This document shows positions 4,551 through 21,641 of a stretch of DNA of 21,712 nucleotides, piece by piece. Numbering within the stretch: the first letter of the stretch is position 1; each line of letters opens with the position of its first letter. This DNA comes from a virus. The notes beneath the pieces are model-generated. The model saw only the letters and a list, made by a program, of their open reading frames with translations, had not been told where the DNA came from and searched no databases. A program made the position numbers and the translations under genes. The stretch lies in IMG/VR virus record IMGVR_UViG_3300050821_007258, positions 1 to 21,712 of that record. One strand, given 5' to 3'.

Positions 4551-4573
4551 ACGTTTCCGCCTTTTGCTAGGAT
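4545..4573 (+). promoter_or_regulatory. Rightward promoter for the early block
   Basis: TTGACA (4545-4550) and TAGGAT (4568-4573, 4 of 6) are 17 bases apart. Initiation near 4580 would leave about 17 bases of leader containing GGAGAAAG before the ATG at 4597. This is probably the main promoter for the rightward genes that follow. Confidence 0.6.
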
Positions 4574-4596
4574 GCGCGTATTGGAGAAAGTTCCCA

Positions 4597-4929
4597 ATGC
4601 CACAAGTCAACAGAGCGGACAGGTTCTGGCGGCAAGTCTTCAAGACAAAGACCTGTTGGTTTTGGATTGGCGCTGTTTCCAAGAACGGTTACGGTGCTTT
4701 CATCGAAGGACGTGGAAACGTACGCACCGCTCACCGTGTAGCTTACGAACTCGCAATAGGCCCGATTCCAACAGGTCAGTTAGTTAGACATTCCTGCGAT
4801 ACTCCGCTCTGCATGAATCCCCTTCATTTGTTGCTAGGCACGGACGCTGATAATGGCCGTGATCGAACAGAGCGGGGGCATGATTACTTTGAAGCAAGGC
4901 GGCACCTCGCGCAAGCGAAGAAAGGATAA
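4597..4929 (+). CDS. HNH endonuclease (HNH_3-type, homing-like)
   Basis: A 110-residue protein starting at ATG 4597 behind GGAGAAAG; an upstream TTG lies within the promoter and is rejected. Order of motifs: CWFWIGAVSKNGYG (about 20-33), AHRVAYEL (45-52), GPIP, RHSCDTPLCMNPLHL (64-78) and GTDADN. This is the classic free-standing phage HNH layout: two Cys and His residues bind zinc, and the histidines of RHSC and NPLHL belong to the beta-beta-alpha metal active site. All key residues appear intact. The target is unknown. It is related in layout to the gene at 13662, whose second half is longer. Confidence 0.88.
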   Translation: MPQVNRADRFWRQVFKTKTCWFWIGAVSKNGYGAFIEGRGNVRTAHRVAYELAIGPIPTGQLVRHSCDTPLCMNPLHLLLGTDADNGRDRTERGHDYFEARRHLAQAKKG

Positions 4930-12842: not shown

Positions 12843-13684
12843 GCGATTACATTACCGAGCCAAAAGGCCCATTTGACCCTAAAGATGCAGCGGGAAAGCC
12901 TGCGCCCGCCCCGCCAGCGAACGATGCGCCATGTAAGGTATGTTTGCAGCACGGACGCGCAAATTGTGAAGCTCACAGGTCTTCGGAGGCGTCAAACCAA
13001 CGCTCCCCGAGAGCGGGTAATTCAGAAGCTGAAGCTAGCGACGCTCGGGCTGGCTCCGAAGTGGAGGCCCCAACCGCTAAGGGGGTAGCTACGCAAACTT
13101 CGAACCCGCTACCCCCTGCGGTGGAACTGGCGCATCAGCTAATTGGTATCGTCACTGATGCCGTTACGGTAGAAGGCTGCCCAAGCGACAACCATACAAT
13201 CGAGTTATACAAGGCCGATGAAGTTGAGCAGCAAGTTGTTAAGGCGCTCGAATCCTACGCCCTCTCCGCGCAGCAACAGGACTGTTATCGTTGTGATGGA
13301 CCAATTGAGCGTGGCAAAGAAATAGCATTCCATCCCAAATGTTTAGCCGACTACACCGGGAGTCAGTTCCTTTTATTGCAGACCGAGGCCGAGCAATCCG
13401 CGTGGGCACAGGCGATTCTGCGGGCGGCGCAACGAGTGGATGCCGCTTTGGCCGACCACAACAAGACGCATCACGATGAAAAGCTAGAAGGCTGGCTATC
13501 AGGAATAAGTATCGGGATTCGCTCCCTTCAATTAGCGCCGAACTGGCTAGAGCAGCACGAGCAACGGGTGATTGCGAAGGCGCGGGAGCAAGGTCAAGAT
13601 GATGTGCTCAATGAAGTCAGTGAGGAATTGGCAACTGACTTGCGAGAACTTTTGGTGAGGCATGGCACAAGGCAAGCGCAATAG
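12839..13684 (+). CDS. Hypothetical protein with disordered N-terminus and zinc motif
   Basis: A 281-residue protein. Residues 1-90 are Pro/Ala/Ser-rich and contain CKVC and one more Cys in NCEAH, compatible with a small zinc site. A hairpin-forming DNA stretch (13080-13117) encodes the AKGVATQ...PLPPAV part. Residues 92-140 contain a VEQQVVKALESYAL helix. CYRCDGPIERG..HPKC (148-168) matches a second zinc site. The last third is helical, with QAILRAAQRVDAALADH. No enzyme motif is visible. It overlaps the next gene by 23 bases. Confidence 0.65.
   Translation: MSDYITEPKGPFDPKDAAGKPAPAPPANDAPCKVCLQHGRANCEAHRSSEASNQRSPRAGNSEAEASDARAGSEVEAPTAKGVATQTSNPLPPAVELAHQLIGIVTDAVTVEGCPSDNHTIELYKADEVEQQVVKALESYALSAQQQDCYRCDGPIERGKEIAFHPKCLADYTGSQFLLLQTEAEQSAWAQAILRAAQRVDAALADHNKTHHDEKLEGWLSGISIGIRSLQLAPNWLEQHEQRVIAKAREQGQDDVLNEVSEELATDLRELLVRHGTRQAQ
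13080..13117 (+). repeat. 10-bp hairpin in coding sequence, shared with 20009-20066
   Basis: AGGGGGTAGC (13080-13089) and GCTACCCCCT (13108-13117) form a perfect stem around an 18-base loop. The inner eight pairs, GGGGTAGC/GCTACCCC, recur in the hairpin before the endolysin, while the outer pairs differ in a compensating way. This could be a REP-like palindrome or a shared RNA stem. Confidence 0.6.
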
Positions 13685-14198
13685 CCTAGAAGACTTTTGG
13701 AAGTATGTCGTCAAGGATGGGCCGATCCCTGCTCACAAGCCAGAACTCGGCTGCTGCTGGACGTGGACTGGAACAATAGATAAGTCGCAAGGTTATGCCT
13801 ATTTCTCTTGCGCTGGGGAAAGACTGGCTGCTCACAGAGTTGCCTATGAGTTAGTGAAAGGGCCGATTCCTCCAGATAAGCAAATTGACCACCTGTGCCG
13901 GAACCGTGCTTGCCCACGACCATCGCATTTTGAAGCGGTAACTCGAAGGGTTAACATCCTGCGCGGGGAATCTCCGTTCGCTGTAAATCGCCGCAAGAAA
14001 AAGTGCATAAATGGACACCCGTTAAGTGGTCGCAATTTGCAAATAAGAGTCCGTGAGGGACAAGAGCGGCGGCAATGCCGAAAGTGTATGAGAGAACTTA
14101 GTAAAAAGCACATTAGGCTTCGTAGCGAGATGTTGAGAGCGCGGAGGCTAGAGCGCGAAGCCGCCCTTGAACGCGGAGTTTCAGGCGGTGAGAAATGA
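13662..14198 (+). CDS. HNH endonuclease with C-terminal zinc finger
   Basis: A 178-residue protein from ATG 13662, with GGTGAGG upstream. The first 100 residues follow the HNH_3 layout: CCWTWTGTIDKSQGYAYF, AHRVAYELVKGPIP, then IDHLCRNRACPRPSHFEAVT. Active-site histidines in IDHLC and PSHF are present. The usual N-P-x-H has become R-P-S-H, so the asparagine is lost. Residues 115-142 add CINGHP and CRKC, a separate zinc finger often seen in longer family members. It resembles the gene at 4597, with a longer tail. The stop overlaps the following ATG. Confidence 0.85.
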   Translation: MAQGKRNSLEDFWKYVVKDGPIPAHKPELGCCWTWTGTIDKSQGYAYFSCAGERLAAHRVAYELVKGPIPPDKQIDHLCRNRACPRPSHFEAVTRRVNILRGESPFAVNRRKKKCINGHPLSGRNLQIRVREGQERRQCRKCMRELSKKHIRLRSEMLRARRLEREAALERGVSGGEK

Positions 14199-15174: not shown

Positions 15175-15666
15175 GTGAAACATTTCATCAGGCTCGTACA
15201 GGGCAAAGGGTTTGTCTCGCGCCTGATAGAGTTCAGGACTAGCTCCGATTGGCCCACGCATGTCGAACTTGTCGCTACGACCGATGATGATGTGCCGAGT
15301 TATGGAGTATTGAGTTCGCGCTATCCACGAGGCGTTCAGTACCGAGGCTATAGCGATTATCCCATCCAGCGCGACAGATGGTACAAAGTTATTTTGCCAT
15401 CGGACGCTTGCGAGCGAGCGTGGAAAGCAATGGAAACCATTATAGGTCAGAAGTATGATGTACGGGACATCATCGGCTGCAAGTACGGCATTGCTCTTAA
15501 CGAGGATTGGCATACTGACCATCGTTGGATTTGCTCCGAGGCTGTGGCATGGGCCTTTGAAAAAGCAGGTACTCCTCTTTTTAATCCAGCGGAACCTGTT
15601 GCGCGTATTACTCCGAGAGATTTTCTCCTAAGCACATTATTGTCTCTGGCAAAGGTCATCAAGTGA
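15175..15666 (+). CDS. Permuted NlpC/P60-like (YiiX-type) protein
   Basis: A 163-residue protein from GTG 15175 with AGGAGA upstream. THVELVA (28-34) supplies the probable catalytic His before the Cys in RWICSEAVAWAFEKAG (C120), the order found in the permuted papain-like clan (YiiX, LRAT-related) of the NlpC/P60 superfamily. A loop DIIGCKYGI lies between them. Members cleave or transfer acyl groups on peptides, lipids or cell-wall material. No signal peptide is seen, so export would need holins or lysis. The TGA overlaps GTG 15663. Confidence 0.65.
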   Translation: MKHFIRLVQGKGFVSRLIEFRTSSDWPTHVELVATTDDDVPSYGVLSSRYPRGVQYRGYSDYPIQRDRWYKVILPSDACERAWKAMETIIGQKYDVRDIIGCKYGIALNEDWHTDHRWICSEAVAWAFEKAGTPLFNPAEPVARITPRDFLLSTLLSLAKVIK

Positions 15667-15983
15667 AGCGCGACGTGCAGGCTACTGAGGCGGCACACTT
15701 TCAAGACCCGCGCAGCTACGTCGCCAAGGATGGCCGCGAAGTCCTCTACAAGGAAGATTGGGAAGCAAGAAAAGATGAACTTAGAATGCGCTCTGGCGGG
15801 AAGTGTGAAGCGATGCTTTTGTTTGGCCGCTGCATGAATTGGGCCGCGCACCCAGACCACATTATCAAGCGAAGCAAGGCGAGAGACGACAGAATGAGCA
15901 ATCTGCAAGCCCTGTGCATAGGATGTCACCGAGCGAAGCACCCAGAAAAGGAGCCGCGATGGACGAAACGAAGCCAGTCTTGA
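15663..15983 (+). CDS. HNH endonuclease
   Basis: A 106-residue protein from GTG 15663 in a GTGA overlap. Motif order: GGKCEAMLLFGRC (45-57), HPDHIIKRS (63-71), RMSNLQALCIGCHRAKH (77-93). This is a standard HNH (PF01844-like) core: Asp-His in the first strand, Asn in the middle, His in CHxAKH, with zinc from the Cys residues. All key residues are present. Next to envelope genes it could be a free-standing nuclease or a homing gene. Confidence 0.88.
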   Translation: MKRDVQATEAAHFQDPRSYVAKDGREVLYKEDWEARKDELRMRSGGKCEAMLLFGRCMNWAAHPDHIIKRSKARDDRMSNLQALCIGCHRAKHPEKEPRWTKRSQS

Positions 15984-17655: not shown

Positions 17656-18318
17656 ATGCAGATGACCAAAAGGCAGTTCATTCAACGGGCCTCCCTTGCG
17701 ACACTCGGTATCCGCTTCGCGTATGCCACGGCTCTCTCAGGTCTCTCTTTGGCGCTCACAGGCTGCAACGTGTTCAGTGACATTTTGAACTGGGTGCCTG
17801 TAGGCGAAGCCTCACTGAACGCCATCCTTGCTGTTCTCACAGGGAACGGAGTGCTCATAAGCCCTGCGTTGCAAACTCTTGTTGGCTTGATTGAAGCGGG
17901 CTTTACAGCTCTAACTGCCGCCATAAAGGAATACCAATCCACAGTGCCCGCTCCTGTCGGCGCTCTCGCCAAGATCGAAACAGCCTTCAAAGATGTGGTG
18001 GATAATTTCAAGACGTTCCTATCATCGCTGAGTGTCAGCGGCGGACTTATGGGCATCGTGATTGGCCTTGCGCAAATCATCTTTTCCACGATTGCCGCGT
18101 TCCTGAATCGCCTGCCGGCCGCTTCCAGTCTTCGCAGAACAGTGGTTATCACCGAACCTGCGAGAGTGGGGAACACGCCATTCGCGGTTGTTCCCAAGGA
18201 ACGTACTCGCCGGGCGTTCAAGCATGACTTCAATCACGTTCTTGACGCTGGCCCAACCGTAGGCGTGATTGTGCCGCAATCGGCTTACTTGCACGTCACG
18301 TTCTGGGAGCACCTGTAA
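17656..18318 (+). CDS. Tat-like lipoprotein with helical mature domain
   Basis: A 220-residue protein from ATG 17656 with AAAGGAG 9 bases upstream. The N-terminus (MTKRQFIQRASLATLG, then a hydrophobic stretch ending LALTGC) has an S/T-K-R-x-F pattern reminiscent of Tat signals and a lipobox Cys at about residue 35. KR instead of RR weakens the Tat reading. The mature part has a repeated hydrophobic helical pattern (LNAILAVLTGNGVLIS, ALQTLVGLIEAGFTALTAAI, GLMGIVIGLAQIIFSTIAAF), which might be membrane-associated. It probably acts with the papain-like protein encoded after the HNH insertion. Confidence 0.7.
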   Translation: MQMTKRQFIQRASLATLGIRFAYATALSGLSLALTGCNVFSDILNWVPVGEASLNAILAVLTGNGVLISPALQTLVGLIEAGFTALTAAIKEYQSTVPAPVGALAKIETAFKDVVDNFKTFLSSLSVSGGLMGIVIGLAQIIFSTIAAFLNRLPAASSLRRTVVITEPARVGNTPFAVVPKERTRRAFKHDFNHVLDAGPTVGVIVPQSAYLHVTFWEHL

Positions 18319-18325
18319 GAAGAAC

Positions 18326-18961
18326 ATGTCCAGTAGAGAATCGGCTCGCAGACTTTATTACAAGAGGCTCTCCTTTGGGATGTGCGGTGGATGTGGTTGT
18401 AGACCGAGATTTGGAAATATCGTTCTATGCGAGATATGCAGAGACCGCCACAGAAAGAGATGGAGAACAAGGCATCCAAATCCAAGAACTAAAGACCCAA
18501 CTTCTCACAACCGAGCGTCTAACAAATATCGTATGAATAACCGAGACAAATGTAGACAGGCAGAATTGAGGTCGCGCAGGAAATTGAAGGCACAGATTTT
18601 CGCTCATTACGGTAATTGCCGATGTTGCGGTGAGCACCGATTGGAGTTTCTTACTTTGCACCACATTAATAACAATGGTGCAGAACATCGCAGGCAACTG
18701 AAGGCGGGTGGCATCGGGTCAAAGGACTTTTACCTATGGGTGAAACGCACAGGATACCCAAGTGATTTAGAGAGTGCCTGCATGAACTGCAACTTTTCCA
18801 AAGGTAGATTCGGCTATTGCCCACACGAAAGAGAGAAACAAAATGCCATACAAGTTGGGGAAACATCCCCCGAAGTACAACGAAAGGACACTTTCGTTTG
18901 CTCGCTACCTCTTACCAGAACCGACCTTCTCAGAACCGAGCAAACTCTTCAGAGAATATAA
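18326..18961 (+). CDS. HNH endonuclease with N-terminal zinc ribbon
   Basis: A 211-residue protein from ATG 18326. The N-terminus carries CGGCGCRPR and CEIC (zinc ribbon, residues 20-38) and a basic linker. The C-terminal module contains CRCCGEHRLEFLTLHHINNN (98-117), FYLWVKRTGYPSDLESACMN and CNFSKGRFGYCPH (155-167), a phage HNH family with a LxHHIN core. The domain ends naturally at about 167, but the frame continues 45 residues and overlaps the peptidase gene by 119 bases. The tail lacks HNH features and may be read-through of the neighbour's DNA. It looks inserted between two functionally linked genes. Confidence 0.82.
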   Translation: MSSRESARRLYYKRLSFGMCGGCGCRPRFGNIVLCEICRDRHRKRWRTRHPNPRTKDPTSHNRASNKYRMNNRDKCRQAELRSRRKLKAQIFAHYGNCRCCGEHRLEFLTLHHINNNGAEHRRQLKAGGIGSKDFYLWVKRTGYPSDLESACMNCNFSKGRFGYCPHEREKQNAIQVGETSPEVQRKDTFVCSLPLTRTDLLRTEQTLQRI

Positions 18962-19595
18962 AGTCCCAGAAGACTCTTGGGGTATGTATTTTAACGATAC
19001 GGCAGGCGATTGCACCTGCGCCGCGAAAGCTCACCGCATGATGCTGATGACCGCGCACACTGGAGAAATGTTCGTTCCCGACCCTGCGGATATTATGAAA
19101 GCTTACATTGACCTGACGGGCTACGACCCTGCGACCGGGAATAACGACACTGGTTGCGCCATGACGGACGTGTTGCAGTACGAACAGGTTACTGGAATCG
19201 CTGGCCGCAAGATCCTCGCATGGGCACAGATTGACCACAATAACATCGACCGCGTGAAGCAAGCCATGTACGTCTTCGGCTGTGTGGACATCGGAGTACA
19301 GTTCCCCAACTCCGCGATGGACCAATTCAGCGCAGGGACGGCTTGGGATGTGCTGCCAGACGACGGCGGTATCGGTGGAGGGCACGACGTACCGATGTTC
19401 GGCTACGGTTCCGTGGGCGATAGCGTTGTTACCTGGGGAAAGCGCCAAGAGATGACTTGGGACTGGTTCAGCAAGTACTGTGACGAAGCCTACGTTGTCA
19501 TCACAGACGATTGGCTCAATAACGCAGACGGCCTAGCGCCCAACACGATGAACCTAGACGCTCTGACCGCTGCCTTGCAGGTTTTCAAGCAGTAG
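18843..19595 (+). CDS. Papain-like cysteine peptidase
   Basis: A 250-residue protein from ATG 18843, overlapping the HNH gene by 119 bases. The C1-type layout is visible: NDTAGDCTCAAKAHRMML, in which C57 or C59 is the nucleophile; GGIGGGHDVPMFGYGS with H181; and VVTWGKRQEMTWDWF, in which the Asn normally following the His is not obvious but WG-x-x-x is conserved. No signal peptide is seen. Related phage proteins are thought to degrade host or particle proteins or act near the cell wall; the substrate here is unknown. Confidence 0.72.
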   Translation: MPYKLGKHPPKYNERTLSFARYLLPEPTFSEPSKLFREYKVPEDSWGMYFNDTAGDCTCAAKAHRMMLMTAHTGEMFVPDPADIMKAYIDLTGYDPATGNNDTGCAMTDVLQYEQVTGIAGRKILAWAQIDHNNIDRVKQAMYVFGCVDIGVQFPNSAMDQFSAGTAWDVLPDDGGIGGGHDVPMFGYGSVGDSVVTWGKRQEMTWDWFSKYCDEAYVVITDDWLNNADGLAPNTMNLDALTAALQVFKQ

Positions 19596-19642
19596 CTCTT
19601 GGGTGAGAAAAGCGGACGTTGAGGTTGTGGCAGTTAGCCTTG

Positions 19643-19722
19643 CGGGGAGACCGTTGGTTCAAATCCAACACCCTGGCCAGCGAAAGTTGGCTAGGGTTAG
19701 TCGAGCATGGTAAGACGCCCCG
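19643..19722 (+). ncRNA. tRNA-like cloverleaf in circularly permuted order
   Basis: Read with tRNA numbering, the 3' half comes first. CGGGG (19643-19647) is the anticodon-stem 3' strand, AGACC the 5-base variable loop, GTTGG-TTCAAAT-CCAAC (19653-19669) a perfect T-arm, and ACCCTGG (19670-19676) the acceptor 3' strand. A GAAA-capped linker leads to CTAGGGT (19691-19697), which pairs fully with the acceptor strand, one G-U. Next come T8, A9, a D-arm GTC/GAC whose loop has A14, G15, GG and A21, G26, and CCCCG (19718-19722), which pairs with CGGGG. Acceptor and linker also form one 12-bp hairpin. Base 33 is G, not U, so normal decoding is unlikely. Confidence 0.5.
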
Positions 19723-19841
19723 AGCATAAAACGCGCCATAGGAACGCGGGGCAGCGATGCTCCGAAGTCAGCGAGCGGGAAACTTTCAGACGCCGACAAG
19801 CCGAGGATATTGAACTTGAATCTGATAATGGCCCTCGGTAG
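19707..19841 (+). CDS. Candidate 44-residue ORF
   Basis: ATG 19707 lies inside the D-loop of the tRNA-like fold and opens a 44-codon frame to TAG 19841: MVRRPEHKTRHRNAGQRC, a charged middle and a C-terminus ending IELESDNGPR. Composition is plausible for a small basic phage protein, and an overlapping ATG (19828) starts the next frame. The ribosome site is weak (AGGG). The same bases form hairpins (GAGCAT/ATGCTC, CGCG/CGCG, CCGAGG/CCTCGG), so coding versus RNA function is undecided. Confidence 0.35.
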   Translation: MVRRPEHKTRHRNAGQRCSEVSERETFRRRQAEDIELESDNGPR

Positions 19842-19971
19842 AACTCGCAAACTGGCAGGGGTTGCCGCTCAACCTTCACCCATTCTTTGTCGGGCTTTTC
19901 CTGAGTCAGCCGTGTATGCGGCAGGCGAAGCAGCACTTAAATGTGCAACCGACTCCAGTTTAGGCGGCTGA
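19828..19971 (+). CDS. Candidate 47-residue ORF
   Basis: ATG 19828 overlaps the end of the preceding frame and reads to TGA 19971: MALGRTRKLAGVAAQPSPIL at the start, GLGG-free middle, ending CATDSSLGG. Composition is normal for a protein, with no rare clusters, but no clear Shine-Dalgarno sequence precedes it. The strand also allows GTCGG/CCGAC, GCAC/GTGC and GGTTG/CAACC pairings. It is a weak gene candidate in an otherwise gene-free region. Confidence 0.35.
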   Translation: MALGRTRKLAGVAAQPSPILCRAFPESAVYAAGEAALKCATDSSLGG

Positions 19972-20006
19972 AGCGCTGCTCTAGTCGCCGGGAAGGAGAA
20001 AGCGAT

Positions 20007-20070
20007 AGCCGGGGTAGCTTCCTCGAATCTCTCCCTCGCTCCCAAGCCAGGGCCGGGCTACCCCGGTTTT
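20007..20070 (+). terminator. Terminator-like hairpin with T-run
   Basis: CCGGGGTAGC (20009-20018) and GCTACCCCGG (20057-20066) form a perfect 10-bp stem, extendable by A-U and G-U pairs, followed at once by TTTTAAT. The 38-base loop is long for an intrinsic terminator and may fold itself (CCCT/AGGG). An orphan ribosome-site-like AAGGAG (19994-19999) precedes it without a start codon. The endolysin ATG follows 9 bases after the T-run. Confidence 0.55.
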
Positions 20071-20078
20071 AATCCTTT

Positions 20079-20591
20079 ATGGACGCTATTACTAGTACTC
20101 GTCTGCAAGAGCTTTACCCCGAACTAGCTCGCCGCTGGACGCAGGCCGACCAGATGCTCGAATCGCTAGGCTTTACCATTCGGGTTGACCAGGGGCTTCG
20201 TACATGGCCGCAACAGGCCGCTCTCTGGGCGCTAGGGCGCGACACAGAGGGAAATGTGATAGACAAGGCCAAGGTAGTCACGCACGCACGTCCTGGGGAG
20301 TCCTACCACAATTACGGCCTAGCCCTAGACTTCGTCCCAATGGAGAATGGCGAGCCGATCTGGGACAGGACACATCCAGCCTATGCCAAGACGATCGAGG
20401 TTGCGGAGAGCTTAGGACTGGTATCAGGAAGCCGCTGGCCGGAGCCAAAGACGGACTTCCCGCACATTCAACTTACAGGGAACTTTCCAGAGAACGCCCC
20501 GGATGACAACTGCAAGTATCTCTTCACCGAAGGCGGGTTGGCCGCTGTGTGGCGTGACGTAGACGCCGCGCTAGGGATTACCTCAGATTAA
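20079..20591 (+). CDS. Endolysin, M15 family (VanY/L-Ala-D-Glu peptidase type)
   Basis: A 170-residue protein from ATG 20079; an in-frame stop 9 bases upstream rules out a longer form. The M15 motif set is complete: GLRTWPQQAALW (39-50), SYHNYGLALDFV (75-86, zinc-binding His77 and Asp84) and FPHIQL (127-132, His129), with KTD before it. M15 phage endolysins cut peptide bonds in the peptidoglycan stem. No signal peptide, so release needs a holin. No Shine-Dalgarno sequence precedes the ATG, and the hairpin directly upstream may limit translation. Its stop overlaps the stop of the convergent minus-strand gene. Confidence 0.9.
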   Translation: MDAITSTRLQELYPELARRWTQADQMLESLGFTIRVDQGLRTWPQQAALWALGRDTEGNVIDKAKVVTHARPGESYHNYGLALDFVPMENGEPIWDRTHPAYAKTIEVAESLGLVSGSRWPEPKTDFPHIQLTGNFPENAPDDNCKYLFTEGGLAAVWRDVDAALGITSD

Positions 20592-20752
20592 TGCAGGAAC
20601 GTAATAGGATGCCCGCTCGCCACCATGAGCAGGAAAGCGAGCAAGCCAGCGAAGAACGATAGCCGCCCAATCTCCTGCAACTTCGGGTTGACGCACAGCG
20701 CGTACATTAAAACTCCCACCAACGCGACTAACAAACTGAGGTAAATAACCAT
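20588..20752 (-). CDS. 54-residue membrane protein, holin-like
   Basis: A 54-residue protein from ATG 20752 with a perfect AAGGAGG 6 bases upstream. Two hydrophobic helices: YLSLLVALVGVLMYALCV (4-21) and LSFFAGLLAFLLMVA (31-45), with a short NPKLQEIGR loop. Size and topology suit a class II holin or small antiholin. The gene lies convergently against the endolysin and shares the four-base TTAA overlap of stop codons with it. Function is by inference from location. Confidence 0.65.
   Translation of the reverse strand: MVIYLSLLVALVGVLMYALCVNPKLQEIGRLSFFAGLLAFLLMVASGHPITFLH

Positions 20753-21056: not shown

Positions 21057-21641
<585 letters not shown>

Follow-up and report, generated by a model that had tools for sequence, protein, structure and literature searches.

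The segment at positions 19643-19722 of a viral DNA fragment folds on paper as a circularly permuted tRNA, and is probably the tRNA-mimic module of a non-coding RNA that resembles the Y RNAs of the YrlA type, in which the Ro60 tether has diverged or been lost. The source record is a 21.7-kb IMG/VR fragment, and the whole of it (21,712 nucleotides, here called the window) was analysed. By sequence and predicted pairing, the module has the makings of a tRNA L-shape, with the acceptor end closed by a hairpin and the strands leaving through the anticodon stem as in YrlA.

YrlA is a bacterial Y RNA: D, T and acceptor arms form its tRNA-like domain, and its basal stem binds Rsr/Ro60. In the RYPER machine PNPase is the partner of the tRNA-like end, and DusA and TruB act on YrlA as modifying enzymes (PMC8394870). 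Mycobacteriophages are reported to carry Y RNAs (PMC12282133), and YrlA has been described in several phages (PMC7765460).

The cloverleaf and its genomic setting

The RNA lies in a stretch between two genes, and the surrounding features are as follows.

18843..19595, plus strand: upstream gene, phrog_19005; a relative in MW202816 is annotated as a cysteine protease
19596..20078, plus strand: stretch of 483 nt between two genes, without a convincing gene in the list of open reading frames; contains the RNA, and native ARAGORN and Rfam scans give no match at the RNA locus
20009..20070, plus strand: terminator-like hairpin CCGGGGUAGC...GCUACCCCGG-UUUU directly before the endolysin gene (sequence and pattern scan; a pattern only)
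20079..20591, plus strand: downstream gene, peptidase M15 / VanY-type endolysin (Pfam PF13539 and PF02557, PHROG lysis families)

Elsewhere in the 21.7-kb window there are three HNH endonuclease genes (4564-4929, 13662-14198 and 15663-15983). The open reading frame at 18269-18961 is HNH-like by its cysteine/histidine pattern and has no Pfam hit, and that at 21057-21641 on the minus strand ends in eleven glutamines, which come from a CTG/CAG triplet repeat near 21060-21093.

The cloverleaf itself is made up of the following parts.

19643..19722, plus strand: circularly permuted tRNA cloverleaf, the tRNA-mimic module (R1 covariance model, ARAGORN on re-ordered halves, circularised scan, fold z -5.0)
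19643-19647 with 19718-19722, plus strand: anticodon stem, 5 bp, 3′ strand CGGGG with CCCCG (sequence, folding)
19648-19652, plus strand: variable loop AGACC (sequence)
19653..19669, plus strand: T arm GUUGG-UUCAAAU-CCAAC (sequence; pairing probability 0.92 or higher in all contexts folded)
19670..19697, plus strand: acceptor stem with its prolongation to 12 bp and a GAAA loop at 19682-19685 (sequence; pairing probability 0.87-1.0 in every context)
19698-19699, plus strand: U8 A9 (sequence)
19700..19716, plus strand: D arm GUCGAGCAUGGUAAGAC (sequence; pairing probability 0.8 alone, about 0.03 inside the full 480-nt transcript)
19717, plus strand: G26 (sequence)

Read from 5′ to 3′, the sequence runs through the 3′ strand of the anticodon stem, a 5-nt variable loop, the T arm and the 3′ strand of the acceptor, and then through the GAAA-closed prolongation, the acceptor 5′ strand, UA, the D arm, a G and the 5′ strand of the anticodon stem. 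Within the acceptor, ACCCUGG (19670-19676) pairs with CUAGGGU (19691-19697) at 7/7 positions, one of them G-U, and CCAGC/GUUGG lengthens the helix to 12 bp, which GAAA at 19682-19685 closes. The D arm has three Watson-Crick pairs and a G13-A22, and A14, G15, G18G19 and A21 are present. The positions of the tRNA L-shape are there also: U8-A14-A21, G15 with C48, G18G19 with U55C56, U54 with A58, and G26 with A44.

The preliminary description had placed the cloverleaf at 19643-19722 with this layout, and the sequence bears it out; the ends need no change. Its D arm stands as regards A14, G15, GG and A21, but the stem consists of three pairs plus one mismatch. The CCA that it saw in the stem of the closing hairpin is present, but lies one base out of register and has no separate discriminator base. 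The lack of U33 also stands, position 33 being a G in every join at the 5-bp stem. The unit stretches beyond these coordinates, to the predicted tether and the terminator-like hairpin.

Rotated tRNAs and the Y RNAs of viral Ro60 loci

A scan with a rotated tRNA covariance model had been proposed as a check on the cloverleaf. The model R1 was trained on 25 ordinary tRNAs of phages and E. coli, each opened at the anticodon loop and with its acceptor ends joined; the window sequence was excluded from the training set. It matches exactly 19643-19722 with 44.5 bits and an E-value of 3.1e-14, where E-values, as with the model R2 below, come from a shortened calibration and bit-score comparisons are the firmer guide. 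The runner-up in the window reaches 9.1 bits, and the best match without a tRNA or Y RNA in 603 kb of other phage DNA reaches 16.4 bits. When the two halves are re-set in normal tRNA order, ARAGORN calls a tRNA with 6/6 trial anticodon loops. A circularised-window ARAGORN scan finds 19643-19722 as the sole place in the window, and the same scan on 3.26 Mb of shuffles gave about 7 loci. The exact R1 match, the ARAGORN call on the re-ordered halves and a fold z of -5.0 thus show the permuted cloverleaf of the preliminary description to be real.

Relatives of the upstream gene provided 80 loci; rotated cloverleaves were present in one only, L078, and this led to the Y RNAs. L078 has two rotated cloverleaves ahead of a Ro60 (TROVE) gene (E 4.7e-18), and the Rfam YrlA model RF02553 scores the two copies at 40.9 and 26.9 bits, under its cut-off of 69. 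By eye, a third Y RNA-like copy is found at L078:7950-8035, upstream of the two others, with the Ro60-side motifs and without the tRNA-like module.

Relatives of the L078 Ro60 protein are encoded in 102 phage records. Most of the phage and genome Ro60 loci that were fetched have R1 rotated cloverleaves of 41-66 bits, and such matches lie beside the TROVE genes of Streptomyces, Xanthomonas, Caulobacter, Brevundimonas, Rhizobium and Arthrobacter phages. At the Myxococcus, Vibrio and Desulfovibrio Ro60 loci (L112, L114, L118), R1 gave nothing above weak tRNA-type matches. A further 80 viral TROVE loci yielded 104 R1 matches at E<=1e-6, a count that takes in a few tandem-tRNA matches (L173, L175); 97 of these are on the same strand as the TROVE gene and 69-1027 nt upstream of it. 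Counted by locus, 66/80 have a same-strand cloverleaf upstream (69-1027 nt, median 156). One to three YrlA-like RNAs commonly sit directly upstream of viral Ro60 genes in this set (L122-L201). In the loci tested with RF02553 (L105-L119 and L078), such RNAs scored under the gathering score. An alignment of 20 viral Y RNAs displays compensatory changes through the acceptor, T and D stems. The link to TROVE genes, together with this covariation, therefore makes the rotated cloverleaf a hallmark of viral Y RNAs, and places the RNA at 19643-19722 in that architectural class.

Around the cloverleaf, viral Y RNAs have a set order: a 5′ GGUGCGNAG, a UACUUC-like element, the cloverleaf and a 3′ GACYUUGAUCUC. 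The UACUUC-like element usually stands 2-13 nt before the anticodon stem and precedes 93/102 cloverleaves; most of those without it are shifted matches or tRNA arrays. From their place in the basal stem, these three sequences appear to be Ro60-binding elements.

Two other RNAs were seen at these loci. Brevundimonas phage Domovoi has an Rfam permuted tmRNA (RF04321, 60.2 bits, cut-off 47) at L116:6481-6736, about 2.4 kb downstream of its TROVE gene. Streptomyces phage BRock has a manA RNA-like sequence (RF01745, 49.7 bits, cut-off 55.2) at L119:4974-5137, inside a tRNA cluster.

The window RNA shares with YrlA (RF02553) the permuted cloverleaf, the T arm, the loop-closed acceptor, the UA, the D arm and the strands that leave at the anticodon stem, and YrlA is known also from phages. 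R2, a covariance model of 20 viral Y RNAs from which the window sequence was excluded, matches 19652-19734 with 35.2 bits; it aligns the module only and leaves the tether unmatched. The tRNA-like module in permuted order, with D, T and acceptor arms and a closed acceptor, is thus found with both models (R1 44.5 bits, R2 35.2 bits). What the viral Y RNAs beside TROVE genes share with the window RNA is this module, whereas the tether differs.

The remaining differences are on the Ro60 side. RF02553 has no match in the window. With motif sets gathered by regular expression, the UACUUC-like 5′ element is absent at the window RNA (its best score is -2.1, where the training set averages 14.3), as is the 5′ GGUGCGNAG element (1.1 against 14.2); the 3′ element was not found in place, the best candidate, from a noisy motif set, scoring 9.2 against 12.0 and lying 225 nt downstream. 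The window has GUUAGCCUUG where viral Y RNAs carry the Ro60-side element. No TROVE gene is detected with PF05731 within the 21.7 kb, the record being a fragment and a gene elsewhere possible. In addition, the acceptor hairpin has 12 bp as compared with 7-9 in most YrlA-type RNAs. Binding to Ro60 is possible, but as its known signature was looked for and is missing, the window RNA is not filed as a YrlA member but only described as built like one.

Tether, competing folds and proposed function

Outside the cloverleaf, folding predicts the following helices.

19625..19635, plus strand: predicted tether helix, 5′ strand UUGUGGC-A-GUU, pairing with 19730-19741 (minimum-energy fold of 19596-19775 and of 19617-19773, z -3.4; single sequence)
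19730..19741, plus strand: predicted tether helix, 3′ strand AAC-GC-GCCAUAG (same folds)
19617..19622, plus strand: predicted outer helix, CGUUGA with UCAGCG at 19768-19773 (folding; weak)
19747..19764, plus strand: predicted side hairpin CGGGGCA-GCGA-UGCUCCG (folding; weak)

The fold of 19617-19773, tether and module together, has a z of -3.4. A basal stem of UUGUGGC/GCCAUAG and CGUUGA/UCAGCG is predicted from this single sequence in short contexts but does not appear when the 480-nt transcript is folded. In long transcripts, a second CGGGGC at 19747 is a rival partner for CCCCG (19718-19722), and in the full-transcript fold the preferred one. The anticodon and D arms are not the minimum-energy pairing in the long transcript, whereas the T arm and acceptor stay stable in all the contexts folded. 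CGAGCAT occurs twice (19702-19708 and 19721-19727) and is followed by ATGCTC (19757-19762); therefore 19757-19762 offers the D arm and the end of the anticodon stem an alternative to the cloverleaf pairing. This alternative pairing may be a switch, or may be due to chance.

Relatives of the RNA were sought by several routes. Exact and loose patterns in IMG/VR gave tandem tRNAs only, and blastn against phages and plasmids gave nothing. The endolysin led to a locus of 64% identity (L002) that has no such RNA, and RecT led to no relative RNA. R1 matches in two further loci (L030 and L039) are ordinary tRNA parts, the first being an isolated 3′ half of a tRNA that may represent an attachment site. 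Because no sister sequence was found in the IMG/VR patterns, phages or plasmids, what is said here of the tether and of function is inferred.

A Y RNA-like RNA with an altered tether appears to us the likeliest description, and its working might be pictured as follows. Transcription would yield a non-coding RNA, which probably stops at the terminator-like hairpin ahead of the endolysin gene and would not be cut and joined into a decoding tRNA. The end shaped like a tRNA would attach to a tRNA- or RNA-handling protein; parallels are PNPase in the Deinococcus Y RNA complex, and DusA and TruB, which modify YrlA. The helix on the open side would tether a second partner, which in ordinary YrlA is Ro60/Rsr. 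Since the usual Ro60 elements are missing, the tether either has changed to suit an atypical Ro60 whose gene lies elsewhere, or no longer serves Ro60. Recruitment of tRNA enzymes, which the preliminary description had also put forward, is possible and would fit a Y RNA-like mimic. Among the other identities it offered, the tRNA mimic is supported, in view of the rotated cloverleaf beside most viral Ro60 genes; the permuted tRNA and the tmRNA-like relic are not, for reasons given below.

Other readings and what the module implies

The main alternative is a decoy against anticodon nucleases. More broadly, the RNA could be a stand-alone tRNA mimic with no link to Ro60, acting as a decoy for a host protein that cuts or binds tRNA, and either derived from a Y RNA or of separate origin. 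An intact tRNA-like module, without Ro60-side elements and without a TROVE gene in the fragment, is what such a mimic might look like, and the authors of PMC7790460 raise YrlA as a possible competitive inhibitor of anticodon nuclease. However, the other high-scoring rotated cloverleaves examined outside tRNA arrays all adjoined TROVE genes, and no homologues were found; the proposal is possible, but on the unlikely side. We hold equally tentative the thought that a permuted tRNA mimic encoded by the phage functions independently of Ro60, with its open side connected to another partner or serving as a decoy for host tRNA-cutting defences or tRNA enzymes.

The cloverleaf can also be looked at as a relic or a chance event, i.e. 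what is left of two tandem tRNAs, or of an attachment site that contained the 3′ half of a tRNA, like the possible one in L030. Tandem tRNA genes do reach up to 41.8 bits with R1, since the 3′ half of one gene and the 5′ half of the next together resemble a rotated tRNA. Yet ARAGORN detects no complete tRNA in the window, and none either when introns as long as 2.5 kb are allowed over 18801-20600. The cloverleaf is fully paired in both stems, and its acceptor helix extends over 12 bp up to the GAAA loop, whereas in a cross-pairing of real unrelated tRNA halves only 3/12,210 match all 7 acceptor and 5 anticodon pairs as the cloverleaf does. We consider an origin of this kind improbable. A canonical tRNA gene was rejected, with the halves not in normal order and no ARAGORN tRNA over 18801-20600.

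More improbable still is a true circularly permuted tRNA gene, in which the transcript would be closed into a circle at the anticodon side, with the GAAA hairpin excised by RNase P and RNase Z. The order of 3′ half, spacer and 5′ half is that of the permuted tRNA genes of red and green algae and of Thermofilum pendens, which also have a short spacer, and the re-ordered sequence is acceptable to ARAGORN. Unlike in those genes, no anticodon loop is obtainable here, as no join of the strands at the 5-bp stem gives U33. The permuted genes known from algae and archaea depend on bulge-helix-bulge splicing endonucleases (PMC3978253), while the present setting is that of a bacterial virus, and no bulge-helix-bulge was seen at the RNA ends, as judged by eye. 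Furthermore, the acceptor helix continues through the spacer with perfect pairing, as it does in the acceptor hairpins of Y RNAs. The permuted tRNA of the preliminary description, taken as a gene that matures into a tRNA, is thus opposed by the impossible U33, by a bacterial setting and by the failure to find a splicing signal. Rfam has no match to a group I or II intron in 19560-20110 or 19720-19960, and a group I permuted intron-exon arrangement was rejected, with no Rfam match and no core that convinced on inspection by eye.

A permuted two-piece tmRNA, whole or in part, with its like order of T arm, 3′ acceptor, spacer and 5′ acceptor, has a negligible chance of being right, for the canonical D stem with A14, G15, G18G19 and A21 is present, there is no tag frame, and neither the ARAGORN tmRNA check proposed earlier nor the Rfam permuted-tmRNA models match anything here, though Rfam calls one in L116.

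The tRNA-mimic module of Y RNAs can therefore occur in a phage fragment without a neighbouring Ro60 gene or the usual Ro60 elements, and one may ask what the module does on its own. Moreover, a covariance model made from merely rotated tRNAs finds Y RNAs at most viral Ro60 genes, many of them under the Rfam cut-off, and thus allows surveys of Y RNAs that are free of known sequences.
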